From Brachyspira aalborgi (GTDB lineage: Bacteria > Spirochaetota > Brachyspiria > Brachyspirales > Brachyspiraceae): 64,000 nucleotides of DNA. The notes under the pieces are model-generated. The model ran no database searches, was not told where the DNA came from, and worked only from the letters and a program-made list of their open reading frames with translations. The stretch spans positions 1,488,001-1,552,000 of the forward strand of contig NZ_SAXU01000001.1 in the NCBI RefSeq assembly GCF_008016455.1. The letters are read 5' to 3'. A program made the position numbers and the translations under genes. This document shows positions 33,452 to 58,852 of the stretch, one piece after another (positions within the stretch are counted from its first letter, which is position 1; the number at the start of each line of letters is the position of its first letter).

Positions 33452-33480
33452 TTGACAAATAATATTTTTTGTATTATACT
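33452..33480 (+). promoter_or_regulatory. Promoter of array-containing leader and 3-hydroxybutyrate dehydrogenase
   Basis: TTGACA (33452-33457), a 17-nt spacer, TATACT (33475-33480). Only six bases (33481-33486) separate the -10 box from the ATG at 33487, so the transcript should begin at or next to that ATG. Confidence 0.75.
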
Positions 33481-33486
33481 AATAAT

Positions 33487-33762
33487 ATGATTAATCTAAT
33501 TTATACTATCATGAACGCAACGCAACGCAACGCAACGCAACGCAACGCAACGCAACGCATTAGCGAAAATTTATTTAAAATTATTTTTTCACGCTCTCAA
33601 TTACGCGTCTTTTATAATATTAATTTATTCAAAAAATATCATTATATTTTTTATAAAAATTTAAATTTTTGGAGGAACAATTATGAGTTTAAAAGGAAAA
33701 GTTGCTTTAGTAACAGGTTCGGCAAGCGGTTTAGGAAAAGCTTCCGTGCAAAGATTATCTAA
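33487..33762 (+). CDS. Near-leaderless leader ORF through AACGC array
   Basis: ATG at 33487 lies 6 nt after the -10 box, so initiation would be leaderless; there is no ribosome-binding site. It encodes MINLIYTIM, then (NATQR)x3 from the pentamer array, then 67 more codons ending at 33762, i.e. 80 nt inside the dehydrogenase gene in another frame. With one more unit (n=1 mod 3) the ORF would instead stop at 33662-33664, 18 nt before the dehydrogenase ATG. With n=2 mod 3 it stops at once (TAG 33561). It is probably a regulatory leader peptide rather than a functional protein. Whether it is translated is not known. Confidence 0.45.
   Translation: MINLIYTIMNATQRNATQRNATQRISENLFKIIFSRSQLRVFYNINLFKKYHYIFYKNLNFWRNNYEFKRKSCFSNRFGKRFRKSFRAKII
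33514..33558 (+). repeat. Pentanucleotide array AACGC x9
   Basis: Nine exact tandem AACGC (GCAAC) units in the 5' leader of the 3-hydroxybutyrate dehydrogenase transcript, about +28 to +72 from the predicted start. No stop in any frame within the array. Confidence 0.97.
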
Positions 33763-34465
33763 AGACGGAGCGGCGGTAGTCGTAGCAGACTTGAATCTTG
33801 AAGGCGCTAAACAAGTAGCCGAAGAGATTAATTCAAGCGGAGGAAAGGCAATTGCCATTTCAATGGATGTTACGAGCGAAGAGGATGTAAATAACGGTTT
33901 CAAAAAGACTATAACCGATTTAGGCGGAATCGATATAGTTTTTTCAAATGCTGGTATTCAAATAGTTCATCCTATAGAAGAATTCCCTTTTGCAGAATGG
34001 AAAAAAATGATGGCTATTCATGCGGACGGAGCTTTTTTAACGGCAAAAGCGGCGTTTACTGAAATGAAAAAGTCAGGCAAAGGCGGACAAATTTTATTTA
34101 TGGGTTCGGCTCATTCTCATTTAGCTTCGCCTTTCAAATCGCCTTATTGTTTTGCAAAACATGGGCTTTTGGGACTTGCAAGAGTTTTGGCAAAAGAGGG
34201 CGGCGAATTTAATATTCACACTTATGTAATATGTCCTGGATTTGTTAGAACTCCTTTAGTTGAAAAACAAATACCCGAACAAGCTAAAATAAAGGGAATT
34301 ACCGAAGAAGAAGTTATAAGCACAATCATGTTAAAAGATACGGTTGATAAAAAATTTACGACTTTAGAAGAAGTCGCTAATTTGGTTTCTTTCTTCGCAC
34401 ATGATGAAGCTGGAGTTATGACTGGACAATCATTATTGGTAAGTCATGGCTGGGGAATGTGTTAA
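33683..34465 (+). CDS. bdhA: 3-hydroxybutyrate dehydrogenase (SDR family)
   Basis: A 260-residue short-chain dehydrogenase close to bacterial D-3-hydroxybutyrate dehydrogenases. Cofactor motif TGSASGLGKA (~11-20), NAGIQ (~90), catalytic Ser in GSAHSH and Tyr-x3-Lys in YCFAKHG (~155-159), and CPGFVRTPLVEKQIPEQA, a substrate-lid block typical of this enzyme. It interconverts 3-hydroxybutyrate and acetoacetate with NAD. GGAGGA ribosome-binding site at 33671. It is followed by a GntP permease, suggesting uptake and oxidation of external 3-hydroxybutyrate. The leader contains the AACGC array. Confidence 0.92.
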   Translation: MSLKGKVALVTGSASGLGKASVQRLSKDGAAVVVADLNLEGAKQVAEEINSSGGKAIAISMDVTSEEDVNNGFKKTITDLGGIDIVFSNAGIQIVHPIEEFPFAEWKKMMAIHADGAFLTAKAAFTEMKKSGKGGQILFMGSAHSHLASPFKSPYCFAKHGLLGLARVLAKEGGEFNIHTYVICPGFVRTPLVEKQIPEQAKIKGITEEEVISTIMLKDTVDKKFTTLEEVANLVSFFAHDEAGVMTGQSLLVSHGWGMC

Positions 34466-34483: not shown

Positions 34484-35782
34484 ATGTTAGGTATTTTACT
34501 CGGTTTAATATGTCTAGCGTTTCTTACATATAAAGGAATGTCTATTCTATGGGTTGCGCCCGTTTCGGCTTTAGTAGTGGCGGCGTTTGGCGGAATGAAT
34601 TTGCTTGACGCGTTTACGGGAGATTTTATGAAAGCTTTTGGCGGATACGCTACAAGTTGGTTTCCTATGTTTATGCTTGGAGCAATATTCGGAAAAGTTA
34701 TGGAGGTTACGGGAGCTGCGGAAAGTATAGCGCATTTTCTCGCTAAAAAAATAGGTTATAAAAGAGCAATAATAGCGGTTGTCGTTATATGCGGAGTTTT
34801 AACTTATGGCGGAGTGTCTTTATTCGTTGTAGTATTCGTTATGTATCCTATGGGACTCGCTTTATTTAGAGAGGCTAATCTTCCAAGAAAAATGCTTCCT
34901 GGCTCAATAGCTTTAGGCGCTTTCGCTTTTACAATGACGGCGTTTCCTGGAACTCCTCAACTTACAAATGTTATACCCGCGACTTATTTCGGAACAGGTC
35001 CTATGAGCGCTCCCGTAATCGGTATAATATGCGGTATCTTAATGTTTATATTAGGAATATTATGGCTTCAATATAGAACTAAAAAATTGCAAGCTGCGGG
35101 AGAAGTTTTTGACGAACCCGAAGGCGAGACTACGGCGGGAGTTTCAAATCCTGAAGATTTGCCAAAATGGTATCTTGCCATAATACCGCCGCTACTAATT
35201 ATAATTTTATTCAATGCGGTAAAATTAAATATAGTTGTCGCTTTGCTTGTCGGAGTTTTAGCTGGCATAATAATATTTATAAGAAGATTAAAAACTTTCG
35301 GCAATGTAATAAAAACATTAAATGACGGCGCGTCTGGCTCTATGCTTGCGATTCTTAATACGGCTGCTGGAGTAGGTTTTGGAGGAGTAATAAAAGCGGT
35401 TCCTGGTTTTGAACAATTAAAAACTTTGGTAACGGGAATAGACGCTTCGCCTTTAATATCGGAAGCTATAGCGATTAATGTTTTGGCGGGAGCTACAGGT
35501 TCTTCTTCTGGCGGAGTTTCAATAGTTTTGGAAGCTTTAGGTCCGCAATTTATAGAATTGGCTAAACAAAGCGGAATAGCTTTAGAGGTTTTCTCAAGAG
35601 TGGCTTCAATATCGGCTGGCGGTTTGGATACTCTCCCTCAATGCGGCGCCGTGTTGACGGTTCTTGCCGTAACAAAATTAACGCATAAAGATTCTTATAT
35701 TGATATATTTATGTGTTGCACGGTAATTCCTATATCGGCTACTATACTCGCTATAATATTAGGAACACTCGGCATTGTATAA
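34484..35782 (+). CDS. GntP family permease, likely 3-hydroxybutyrate or related hydroxyacid
   Basis: A 432-residue membrane protein with about 12 hydrophobic segments. GntP blocks are visible: FMLGAIFGKVMEVTGAAESIA (~63-83), GAFAFTMTAFPGTPQ (~144-158), and GATGSSSGGVSIVLEALGP late in the protein. Family members carry gluconate, glycerate, lactate or beta-hydroxybutyrate. Its place 18 nt after the dehydrogenase points to a C4 hydroxyacid substrate (inference). AAGGAGG ribosome-binding site. Confidence 0.9.
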   Translation: MLGILLGLICLAFLTYKGMSILWVAPVSALVVAAFGGMNLLDAFTGDFMKAFGGYATSWFPMFMLGAIFGKVMEVTGAAESIAHFLAKKIGYKRAIIAVVVICGVLTYGGVSLFVVVFVMYPMGLALFREANLPRKMLPGSIALGAFAFTMTAFPGTPQLTNVIPATYFGTGPMSAPVIGIICGILMFILGILWLQYRTKKLQAAGEVFDEPEGETTAGVSNPEDLPKWYLAIIPPLLIIILFNAVKLNIVVALLVGVLAGIIIFIRRLKTFGNVIKTLNDGASGSMLAILNTAAGVGFGGVIKAVPGFEQLKTLVTGIDASPLISEAIAINVLAGATGSSSGGVSIVLEALGPQFIELAKQSGIALEVFSRVASISAGGLDTLPQCGAVLTVLAVTKLTHKDSYIDIFMCCTVIPISATILAIILGTLGIV

Positions 35783-35805: not shown

Positions 35806-35842
35806 AAGCGGTAGAGATTTATTTTCTATCGCTTAATTTTTT
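35806..35842 (+). terminator. Rho-independent terminator
   Basis: AAGCGGTAGA, short loop, TCTATCGCTT, then a T-rich tail, after the GntP gene. Confidence 0.75.
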
Positions 35843-36041
35843 ATAATTAATATAGAATTCATTTATTAATTAAAGTAAATTTTTAAAATTAACTTTCTTT
35901 AATCTGGATTGCCATGCCTTCTTACGAAGGCTCGCAATGACGGTATTTTTTGCAATTAAAAATTTTGTTTTAACTTCTAACATATTTTTTAATTAATGTT
36001 AAAATTATTCCATAAATTAAAAAATATTTAAATTAATTATA
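35843..36041. other. AT-rich intergenic region with dispersed repeat
   Basis: Between the GntP terminator and the tandem promoters of the next gene. No ORF; contains dispersed repeat copy 3. Confidence 0.5.
35858..35945 (-). repeat. Dispersed palindromic repeat, copy 3 (inverted)
   Basis: An AT-rich near-palindrome (35858-35903) is followed by GGATTGCCATGCC...CTCGCAATGACGG; its complement reads GTCATTGCGAG as in copy 1 at 5494. The AT-rich arm aligns with 15060-15105. Confidence 0.5.
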
Positions 36042-36254
36042 TTGACTTTATTTTAAAAGATTGTATTATAATTAATAAACATTTAAATTATTTTGTTGAC
36101 AAAAATTTTAAATGTTGTAAAATATTATTTAATTAATTAAAATAAATAGTTGACAAATTTTTTTAAAATTATAAAATATTATTAAATTAAATTAATCAAT
36201 ATTGAAAAAAATTTAAAATAAACTATTGACTAATTTTTTTAAATGTTGTATAAT
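36042..36254 (+). promoter_or_regulatory. Four tandem sigma70-type promoters upstream of phase-variable OMP gene
   Basis: Four -35/-10 pairs in direct orientation: TTGACT 36042 with TATTAT 36064 (16-nt spacer); TTGACA 36096 with TAAAAT 36118 (16); TTGACA 36150 with TAAAAT 36172 (16); TTGACT 36226 with TATAAT 36249 (17). The surrounding sequence is repetitive, so they look like duplicated promoter units. Only the last lies close to the gene. Confidence 0.65.
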
Positions 36255-36300
36255 TTAATTGTAAAAGTATTTGCCGAGAAATCGGTGAGGAAAGTTTGAT

Positions 36301-36998
36301 ATGAAAATTACGATAAATAACAATACTGTAAATTTGTTAAGCAAAGCAAAGCAAAGCAAAGCTTAAGCAAAGATGCTAAAGATGTGTATCAGAAAGGGGG
36401 GTTAAGCGCCGATGCGGATGTCAGCGCGCAAATCGGTTATATGTTCCAAGTCAAAGAAGGCTTCGGAATAAGCGTTTTGGGTGAATTAGGTTATAGCTGG
36501 GATATTTACAGTATGGGCTATGGCGATACAACGGTATCAGGTGTTAGTGGTAGCTATATCGCTAAAGACGGGGTTGATTTTATTCAATACTATCATAGCT
36601 TCAAAATTGGATTATTGCCTAAATTCAATATTGGTTTAGGAGGAAGACATGGACTTGCTATAGGAATTGGCGGAGGAGTTAAAATCCCTCTTGCTGGAAA
36701 ACAGTCGCTTACTGTTACGACAGCAGGCAATAATCATGCAACAAGCGAAGACGCTAAAACACAAACCGATATTGCCCTTAAAAGAAAAGACATAACCGAT
36801 ATGTTCTCGCCTTCAGTTATCGGATACATGAAAGTGACTTTCGATTATTATTTGTTCTTCACGGATAATATCGGCATGAATTTCGGTTTATATTTGGCTG
36901 GAGATTTTGGTCCGAAGCTTAAAGATACAAAGGTTAAGATAAACGACTCTTTTGACATCGGGCTTCAATTAGGATTTAGATTTGGTCCGAAAGCTTAA
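36301..36998 (+). CDS. Outer-membrane beta-barrel protein, currently out of frame at GCAAA array
   Basis: The ATG at 36301 follows a good ribosome-binding site (GGTGAGGAAAG) but hits a TAA at 36364 directly after the array. The main open frame (36384-36998 from a GTG) encodes ~204 residues of barrel protein: QIGYMFQVKEGFGISVLGELGYSWD, LPKFNIGLGG, KVTFDYYLFFTDNIGMN, LAGDFGPKLKD, LQLGFRFGPKA. It is paralogous to the protein at 11100-11822. Removing one pentamer (or adding two) joins the ATG in frame: ...LLSKAKQSLSKDAKDVYQKGG. Even then no signal peptide is visible, so the N-terminus may be rearranged or export unusual. Has its own terminator. Confidence 0.7.
36341..36362 (+). repeat. Pentanucleotide array GCAAA x4 (plus partial unit)
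   Basis: Four exact GCAAA units plus GC, inside the first 20 codons of the outer-membrane protein gene; the flanks on both sides carry TTAAGCAAAG. The present count causes an immediate stop; 3 or 6 units would be in frame. Confidence 0.95.
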
Positions 36999-39725: not shown

Positions 39726-40427
39726 TTATTGCGATAAACTATACCAATCGTTATAATTTTTATCCACAGCGGATAAGAATACATCGATAACAGATTTTAT
39801 AGCTTTATCGTCTACAAAAATAACATATTCGTAGCCTTTATAAAATATATTTATAGAATCATCCCTTAAACATTTATAATTGCATGCGCTAGAATCAAAA
39901 TAGGTTTTAAATGTTTTAAGATTATTAAAAGTAGAAGATTCATTTCTTAAAATAATTTTTTTAGGCTCTCCATAATAATCGGGCAACTTTCCCGACTCTC
40001 TTGTATCGTTATAAAAAATATTTTGTCTTAAACCCGAAACCTTATATAAATATAAATCTTCTACTCCAACTCTATCTTGAGAGTAAAATCTTGTTTGCAA
40101 CAATATTTTTGGATTATCTTTACTCGTATTAAAATAACTTATGCCTTTAAGTTCAACCGATATAAATATTTTTCCATGCGGAGTATCCGTTGTGTATATA
40201 AATGCAAAAACCATTTTTGGCAAATATGTAATTCGATTATTTTCCCATATTATATTTAAACTCTCTTCTTTTTGAGTAGAATATAAAAATTGAGCTTCTT
40301 TAAAATTTAAAGCTTCATCTCCAAAACAATTTATATTAATCGCTAATAATAAAATTAAAATCGTTATTGTTAGTTTAATTATTTTTTGTTTTGAACTTAA
40401 AAATCTATTGTCTATTTTATTATTCAT
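39726..40427 (-). CDS. Secreted protein of unknown function
   Basis: A 233-residue protein. A hydrophobic stretch at ~17-35 (KLTITILILLLAININCFG) after a charged N-terminus acts as a signal peptide, with a possible lipobox-like ININC. The body is beta-rich and Asn/Lys-rich (GKIFISVELKGISYF, GYEYVIFVDDKAIKSVID), with a lone CNYKC motif. No family recognised. AAGGAA precedes the ATG at 40427. The gene lies downstream of the minus-strand promoter at 40722-40750 and the GCAAA array, so its expression may depend on array length. Confidence 0.6.
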   Translation of the reverse strand: MNNKIDNRFLSSKQKIIKLTITILILLLAININCFGDEALNFKEAQFLYSTQKEESLNIIWENNRITYLPKMVFAFIYTTDTPHGKIFISVELKGISYFNTSKDNPKILLQTRFYSQDRVGVEDLYLYKVSGLRQNIFYNDTRESGKLPDYYGEPKKIILRNESSTFNNLKTFKTYFDSSACNYKCLRDDSINIFYKGYEYVIFVDDKAIKSVIDVFLSAVDKNYNDWYSLSQ

Positions 40428-40544: not shown

Positions 40545-40715
40545 CTAAAGAATTAACCATATTAAAAAACTGCGATAAATAAAATTTGGAATAGTTATTA
40601 AAAAAATACAATTCACACTTTGCTTTGCTTTGCTTTGCTTTGCTTTGCTTTGCTTTGCTTTGCTTTGCTTAACAAAATTATAGTATGTCAACTTACAGTG
40701 AATATTTTCAATCAT
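40545..40715 (-). CDS. Near-leaderless leader ORF through GCAAA array
   Basis: ATG at 40715 lies 6 nt after a -10 box, the same geometry as at 33487. It reads MIENIHCKLTYYNFVK, then (QSKAK)x3, then 24 more codons to the TAG at 40545-40547, 117 nt upstream of the secreted-protein gene. If the array held a multiple of three units, the frame would stay open for 54 further codons to a TAA at 40450-40452, 22 nt before the ATG at 40427. With n=2 mod 3 it stops just after the array. Too short for standard callers. Likely a regulatory leader; translation unproven. Confidence 0.4.
   Translation of the reverse strand: MIENIHCKLTYYNFVKQSKAKQSKAKQSKAKQSVNCIFLITIPNFIYRSFLIWLIL
40618..40670 (-). repeat. 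Pentanucleotide array GCAAA x10 (minus strand)
   Basis: Ten exact CTTTG units on the plus strand (40618-40667) plus CTT, i.e. GCAAA on the minus strand. On the minus strand it is preceded by ACTATAATTTTGTTAAGC, nearly the same sequence that precedes the array at 36341. Confidence 0.97.
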
Positions 40716-57741: not shown

Positions 57742-58503
57742 TTATAAATCAATATTATGATTTTTTATAAAAATTAAATCGCAATTATTATCCATAAGTT
57801 TTTTATAACCTTTTGAATTCATTAATTCTAAAATTTCATTATAATTTTCATTATATTCTACCGTTATTAAACCGAAAGAATATTTATCAAAATCGATACT
57901 TCTTAATACATCCAACTCGCCGCCTTCTATATCTAAAGACATAAAATCTATATGATTAATATTTTTATAATTTGACATAAGCTCTTCAAATGTTATAGTA
58001 TCAACTTCGATATATTCCATATTATTATCGCTTTCTCTTTCAATTCTTTCTTTATGTCCTGAAGTATTATGAGTATCCAAAACATCCAATACTCCGACTG
58101 TGGAAGTTAAAAATTTTGCTTTTCCAATATTTTTAGAACTCACGGCGCAATTATACAAATCGCATTTTCTATTTTTCTTAAGCGCTTCAAAAGTTTTTGG
58201 ACTTGCTTCAACGCAAAAACCGTCCCAGCCTAATTTTTCAAATATATATGTATTGCTTAAATTTATTCCGTCATAAGCGCCAATATCTATATAAAAACCG
58301 TTCTTTTTATTTTTCAAACATAAATATGCTATAATATCTTGTCCGAATTGTCCTTTAAAATCTAAACCGTAAGTATTAGACATTATTTGCAAATTTAATA
58401 ATAATGAGTTTTTTTCTTTAGATTTTAATAACTTTCTAATATTGTTTCTTAATTGTCTAAACGGTATCCACCAAACTATTCTGTCTATAATATTTGAATT
58501 CAT
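57742..58503 (-). CDS. FkbM-family SAM-dependent methyltransferase
   Basis: A 253-residue protein. SAM motif GFYIDIGAYDGINLSNTYIFEKLGWDG (~70-96), CVEASPKTFEALKKN, and the C-terminal FMSLDIEGGELDVLRSIDF block are FkbM hallmarks. Such enzymes methylate sugars or polysaccharides, so a cell-surface glycan target is plausible. AAGGAG ribosome-binding site at 58516-58511 sits directly after the stop of the upstream leader ORF. The leader carries the 26-unit array. Confidence 0.9.
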   Translation of the reverse strand: MNSNIIDRIVWWIPFRQLRNNIRKLLKSKEKNSLLLNLQIMSNTYGLDFKGQFGQDIIAYLCLKNKKNGFYIDIGAYDGINLSNTYIFEKLGWDGFCVEASPKTFEALKKNRKCDLYNCAVSSKNIGKAKFLTSTVGVLDVLDTHNTSGHKERIERESDNNMEYIEVDTITFEELMSNYKNINHIDFMSLDIEGGELDVLRSIDFDKYSFGLITVEYNENYNEILELMNSKGYKKLMDNNCDLIFIKNHNIDL

Positions 58504-58516
58504 TATTGAACTCCTT

Positions 58517-58852
58517 TTATAAATTTTTTTTATTTATGATTAAATTAAAATTAAGACTAAATTTAAATTGCTGCCTAAATATTTTCATATTTAATAAATG
58601 CATTATTAAATATGAATTTAAAAAATCATAAGAAAATGATTTAATATAATATTGATTTTTTGATAAATTGAATAAAAAGTTTAAATTATTCGCAAGGCAA
58701 GGCAAGGCAAGGCAAGGCAAGGCAAGGCAAGGCAAGGCAAGGCAAGGCAAGGCAAGGCAAGGCAAGGCAAGGCAAGGCAAGGCAAGGCAAGGCAAGGCAA
58801 GGCAAGGCAAGGCAAGGCAAGCGTCAAAAATATAGTATAAATCGTTATTCAT
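58517..58852 (-). CDS. Near-leaderless leader ORF through 26-unit pentamer array
   Basis: ATG at 58852 is 9 nt after a -10 TATAAT, so the mRNA would be almost leaderless. It reads MNNDLYYIFDA, then (CLALP) repeats from the array, then 57 further codons to the TAA at 58517-58519. That stop directly abuts the ribosome-binding site of the FkbM gene (13 nt from its ATG). The other two frames stop within 11 nt after the array (TAA in both). At 26 units, translation would reach the FkbM start region; at other counts mod 3 it would not. The Cys/Leu/Pro peptide itself is unlikely to be a functional protein. Confidence 0.45.
   Translation of the reverse strand: MNNDLYYIFDACLALPCLALPCLALPCLALPCLALPCLALPCLALPCLALPCLANNLNFLFNLSKNQYYIKSFSYDFLNSYLIMHLLNMKIFRQQFKFSLNFNLIINKKNL
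58692..58821 (-). repeat. Pentanucleotide array of 26 units (GCAAG plus strand, CTTGC minus strand)
   Basis: 26 exact tandem units, 130 bp, in the 5' leader of the FkbM methyltransferase transcript. It is the longest of four related arrays and the one most likely to vary in length. Confidence 0.97.

Follow-up and report, generated by a model that had tools for sequence, protein, structure and literature searches.

A pentanucleotide array in a leader reading frame as a candidate phase-variable switch of a 3-hydroxybutyrate dehydrogenase operon in Brachyspira aalborgi

How could a short tandem repeat between a promoter and a metabolic gene affect the expression of that gene, and is such an arrangement confined to a single operon? 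The question is raised by a 3-hydroxybutyrate dehydrogenase operon in the window, by which we mean the whole stretch of 64,000 nucleotides analysed here, taken from a Brachyspira aalborgi genome of 2.50 Mb in 8 contigs. On the forward strand, a sigma-70-type promoter (TTGACA-17-TATACT, 33452–33480, 11/12 match) precedes a leader and the dehydrogenase operon, and the leader ATG at 33487 lies six bases 3′ of the −10 element. Between this strong promoter and the dehydrogenase gene, within the leader ORF, there is a perfect AACGC array of 9.2 units and 46 nt (33514–33559, 100% matches) with no stop in any frame; chance is not the source of a perfect pentamer array of this length.

With the present nine units, the leader ORF (33487–33762, beginning MINLIYTIMNATQR...) ends 80 nt inside the dehydrogenase gene, out of frame with it. 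The exit frame that we predict to be coupled (33560–33664, beginning LAKIYLKLFFHALNYASF...) needs 7, 10 or 13 units and closes at a TAA (33662–33664) 18 nt ahead of the dehydrogenase ATG at 33683, and with 8 or 11 units a TAG is met directly after the array (33561–33563). The dehydrogenase (33683–34465; NF009931 and NF009093 above cut-off, TIGR01963 just below) has a ribosome-binding site, GGAGG (33671–33675), and is followed by a GntP-family permease as the second gene of the operon (34484–35782) and by a terminator-like hairpin at the operon end (35806–35834). Promoter, start codon, array, gene identity and the fate of the leader frame at 7 or 10, at 8 or 11 and at the present nine units had all been put forward in the original prediction, and all were recovered where it had placed them. 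It had also treated the locus as isolated, which does not hold: the locus is a member of a large family, and many of the other members precede lipoprotein, membrane-protein or glycan-type genes.

We propose that the AACGC array acts as a phase-variable frame switch in a translated leader ORF, gating the gene behind it, and would put the probability of this reading at roughly 70%. Frame control through the leader appears well supported by two kinds of sequence comparison, namely the recurrence of the architecture throughout the genome and the ortholog in B. catarrhinii. Both strengthen the control by unit number that the original prediction had envisaged. Its three expression states fare less well. 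The class usually has one frame that reaches the gene and two that stop early; the overrunning third frame of the window locus is unusual, being otherwise found only at genome position 1,610,967.

The recurrence became apparent in 864 kb of sampled stretches from the genome of the window, surveyed for perfect arrays of at least 3.6 units. These stretches contain 28 pentamer and 4 heptamer arrays. The only other arrays are two of AT-rich hexamers and one of the AT dinucleotide, tri- and tetramers being absent. Several different units occur (AACGC, AAGCA, CTTGC, ACAGT, CACTC, CAGCT, GTCAACC and others). The statement that only pentamers occur, which described the first 464 kb, was overturned by the heptamers once 864 kb had been covered. 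By extrapolation, the whole genome would hold roughly 80–100 arrays, a figure drawn from a density that is slightly biased because the window and two further stretches of the sample had been chosen for their AACGC arrays. Most arrays have a promoter with a match of at least 11/12 within 180 nt on one strand, the corresponding figure for a random position being 2.7% per strand. Among the 38 promoter-bearing loci, eight have a leader ATG at +5 to +10 after the −10 element, and a ribosome-binding site is present at 20 others.

Four arrays lie in the 64-kb window. Beyond the dehydrogenase leader, a second leader on the forward strand starts at ATG 36301 (MKITINNNTV...), carries 4.8 units of AAGCA (36339–36362) and runs into an ORF without a signal peptide. 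The remaining two are on the reverse strand. One starts at ATG 40715 with an array of 10.6 AAGCA units (40618–40670) and is presently out of frame; its coupled frame stops 22 nt before the ATG of a secreted-protein gene (39726–40427). The other starts at ATG 58852, carries 26 units of CTTGC (58692–58821) and is presently in frame, its coupled frame stopping 13 nt before an FkbM methyltransferase gene (57742–58503).

We followed the three exit frames of every array with a clear downstream gene (ATG plus ribosome-binding site, ORF of at least 100 aa). At 30 of the 31 loci at least one exit frame ends between −30 and +20 nt from the gene ATG or is fused in frame with the gene, as against 4.9 loci expected from dinucleotide shuffles of the same 31 leaders. 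Many loci in the sample are paralogs of one another and hence not independent; for this reason we also counted one locus per unit family, with the result of 14 of 15 against 3.4 by shuffle (P about 1e-13). Among gene upstream regions of the sample that have no array, 19–29% possess such a frame. The gene-reaching frame is usually single per locus, the remaining frames mostly stopping early, and stop-start overlaps of the ATGA type occur at seven loci (0.8 expected from shuffles). The window locus taken alone is not significant, since 18% of shuffles perform equally well. Its coupled frame ends 18 nt before the ATG and not on it, and its present frame is likewise open and passes the dehydrogenase start. 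At present, seven loci of the family are in frame and 22 are not, a split that does not depart from a random one-third distribution (P = 0.33). Stop-free repeat units were also considered as proof of translation and were discarded, the count (16/17 vs. 14.5 expected) not being significant.

The dehydrogenase gene was found in two of 26 Brachyspira genomes, that of the window and one carrying a B. catarrhinii Z12 contig, and the two proteins have 95% amino-acid identity. The B. catarrhinii locus retains the promoter, the leader ATG and the AACGC unit, the latter in 3.8 copies (9.2 in the window), and its leader ORF of 90 codons ends in an ATGA on the dehydrogenase start. The other two exit frames meet stops 177 and 184 nt before that start. 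This layout is the arrangement predicted for an ON state, and the local register of the B. catarrhinii leader matches the frame that the window would enter with 7, 10 or 13 units. The leader-family profile does not single out this frame in the window, which makes its assignment as the coupled frame a weak one.

Homologous leaders occur at more than 20 loci and are nearly always stop-free, and 18 of 24 leader indels are multiples of three. Synonymous changes in the leaders number 21, with 21.0 in simulations, which gives no support to selection on the sequence of the leader peptide. Since the peptide is neutral while the open frame is kept, the act of translation, rather than its product, seems to matter; what the leaders conserve is probably the open frame and hence their being translated. 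Palindromic inserts in B. catarrhinii leaders stay in frame, and 345–360 nt remain open. Unit number is the variable part: two near-identical paralogs carry 8.4 and 5.4 units between flanks that are identical at 120/120 and 198/200 positions.

According to the proposed mechanism, the promoter at 33452 would give a transcript beginning at or beside the leader ATG at 33487, ribosomes translating the leader would cross the stop-free array, and the number of units would set one of three exit frames. In the ON frame, translation would continue as far as the start of the downstream gene or stop just short of it, allowing termination-reinitiation and/or sparing the leader polarity or premature termination; termination-reinitiation would be the simplest reading of the ATGA overlaps and near-start stops. 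The usual off frames would stop right after the array and leave approximately 100–200 nt of leader untranslated. Slipped-strand gain or loss of units may move a locus between these states, which is supported by the near-identical paralogs in which unit number is the main difference. In the window, 7, 10 or 13 units are predicted to turn expression of the dehydrogenase and the permease ON, and 8 or 11 units, by the rule of the class, to turn it OFF. The present nine units appear to place the locus outside the predicted coupled frame, in a state that overruns the dehydrogenase start and whose expression level is uncertain.

The alternative that weighs most on this interpretation concerns transcription. 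Between the array and the gene, 20 of 31 loci have terminator-like hairpins (a stem followed by a T-rich tail), a proportion far above that in shuffles, and because these hairpins are so strongly enriched in the other leaders, relief of premature termination is a real alternative or addition to coupling. It is quite possible, although short of probable, that ribosomes in the long frame melt a premature terminator, as at pil1 of Streptococcus gallolyticus, whose layout agrees with that found here (PMC3894217), and that coupling at the start codon is incidental. However, many of these hairpins have no strong T-run, and the exit frames end at the start codon, not at the hairpins. At the window locus, moreover, no premature terminator hairpin was found between array and gene, and the leader RNA folds no better than its shuffles (z +0.84). 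An Rfam search gave no match.

It is unlikely that length rather than frame is what counts, with the unit number gradually altering 5′ leader spacing, mRNA stability or structure. The arrays are located in transcribed 5′ leaders, and length-dependent repeats in 5′ leaders exist in other bacteria, but such a model predicts neither an exit frame kept open up to the gene start nor leader indels in multiples of three, and no unit of a size divisible by three with the G or C content of the other units was found in the 864 kb. The homology of the leader peptides, recognisable across many loci, would suit a switch whose target is not the downstream gene but the leader's own product, a functional small protein made in a phase-variable manner. 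With a neutral substitution pattern, and with fusions and variable ends that follow the start of whichever gene comes next, we consider this very unlikely. Perfect repeats also expand readily, and one may ask whether the arrays are neutral microsatellites in AT-rich intergenic DNA with no regulatory role; promoter association, unit sizes and open exit frames are all so far from chance that this can be given hardly any credence.

The preferred reading, a frame switch within a translated leader, has features of several known systems. In classical coding-sequence contingency loci, such as those with pentamers in Neisseria and tetramers in Haemophilus, units not divisible by three toggle the reading frame. 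The window locus likewise has a perfect array, its unit length is no multiple of three, and the number of units shifts the frame. Unit number was seen to differ between species (9.2 vs. 3.8 at this locus) and between near-identical paralogs. In contrast to the classical loci, the Brachyspira array is in a separate upstream frame, and the start and ribosome-binding site of the gene are intact. The likeness to coupled gene pairs with ATGA overlaps is that an upstream stop overlaps or adjoins the downstream start, exactly so in B. catarrhinii and at seven loci of the B. aalborgi genome; at the window locus the stop lies 18 nt before the ATG, and this only with 7, 10 or 13 units. Here, however, the upstream frame is a leader whose peptide is unconstrained and whose frame the repeat would make unstable.

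The pilus loci pil1 and pil3 of S. gallolyticus show attenuation-like phase variation through GCAGA repeats in a leader peptide, and relief of premature termination has been demonstrated there (PMC3894217). There as in Brachyspira, the leader ORF that follows the promoter and precedes the gene contains a pentamer array, the unit number would set the frame and the reach of the ribosomes, and one class of frames stops early. In S. gallolyticus there are two such loci, both for pili, and the terminator hairpin is strong, whereas the B. aalborgi genome has dozens of loci, with exit frames that stop at or close to the start of the gene or continue into it in frame; the window locus has the array in its leader ORF and lacks a premature intrinsic terminator.

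In the open literature searched, leader-ORF repeat switching is documented for two pilus loci of one Streptococcus, and no report of repeat-based phase variation in Brachyspira was found. S. gallolyticus provides the precedent for the principle, a leader ORF that contains a pentamer array; for the scale, the endings at start codons and the use throughout a lineage, that literature has no description. In Brachyspira, leader-ORF switching looks like a standard control element that is used dozens of times. The broader proposal, that the lineage of the window genome and B. catarrhinii has some 80–100 independent phase-variable leader ORFs across the genome, with translational coupling controlled by slippage, is in our judgement evenly balanced. 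Its putative targets would include lipoproteins, membrane proteins, glycan enzymes and at least one catabolic operon. If true, such a set would create very large combinatorial diversity within a population, and the switches would offer an explanation for the surface diversification of intestinal spirochaetes. The window locus suggests that a carbon-use operon, here for 3-hydroxybutyrate, may be controlled in this way too.

Arrays are much rarer in other Brachyspira, where 800 kb yielded 7, most of them tetramers. Three tetramer loci of these genomes share the leader layout: AAAC x39 (L165, 9739–9895), AAGC x21.5 (L178, 14518–14603) and AAGC x27 (L178, 16086–16194), with exit frames that end at +4, −1 and −9 of the downstream ATG, respectively. 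No array is present in the 5′ region of a similar dehydrogenase gene on a contig labelled Helicobacter (L020).

Some minor observations concern the leaders and their surroundings. By eye, a hairpin inside the translated leader stays in place, approximately 35–70 nt ahead of the gene start, while its paired bases change (CAAGGA/TCCTTG, CAGAGA/TCTCTG, ATCGGG/CCCGAT), and its register moves by one base between sub-families; it was seen at G000 651847, 709675, 1207466, 1945563 and 2334974 and at about 880–925 of L009. The MKITINNNTV leader, together with its promoter and array, is present in 12 copies in the genome with at most three mismatches (window 36226–36362 and 11 others; L131–L142). It precedes several unrelated gene families, is absent from 25 other Brachyspira genomes and looks like a spreading cassette. 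Just 5′ of its promoter in the window is a tandem repeat of 54–55 bp (36015–36220), each copy of which has a promoter-like site (TTGACA/TTGACT-16-TATTAT/TAAAAT). The ORF behind its AAGCA array (36339–36998) resembles an outer-membrane protein by eye and has no Pfam or NCBIfam match; it has neither a signal peptide nor an ATG of its own, and its reading frame extends back into the array without a stop, which gives the impression that the start of the gene has been lost.

A palindromic element (ggattgccatgcc...ggctcgcaatgacg) lies 3′ of the permease at 35903–35942 of the window, and peptides resembling its translation are found as in-frame inserts, with no added stops, in B. catarrhinii leader ORFs (L184, L189, L197). 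Finally, elsewhere in the genome of the window (L124, 14577–14605), a lipoprotein-like gene has a CAACT array directly after its start codon, within the signal peptide, an arrangement of the classical coding-sequence type of repeat switch.
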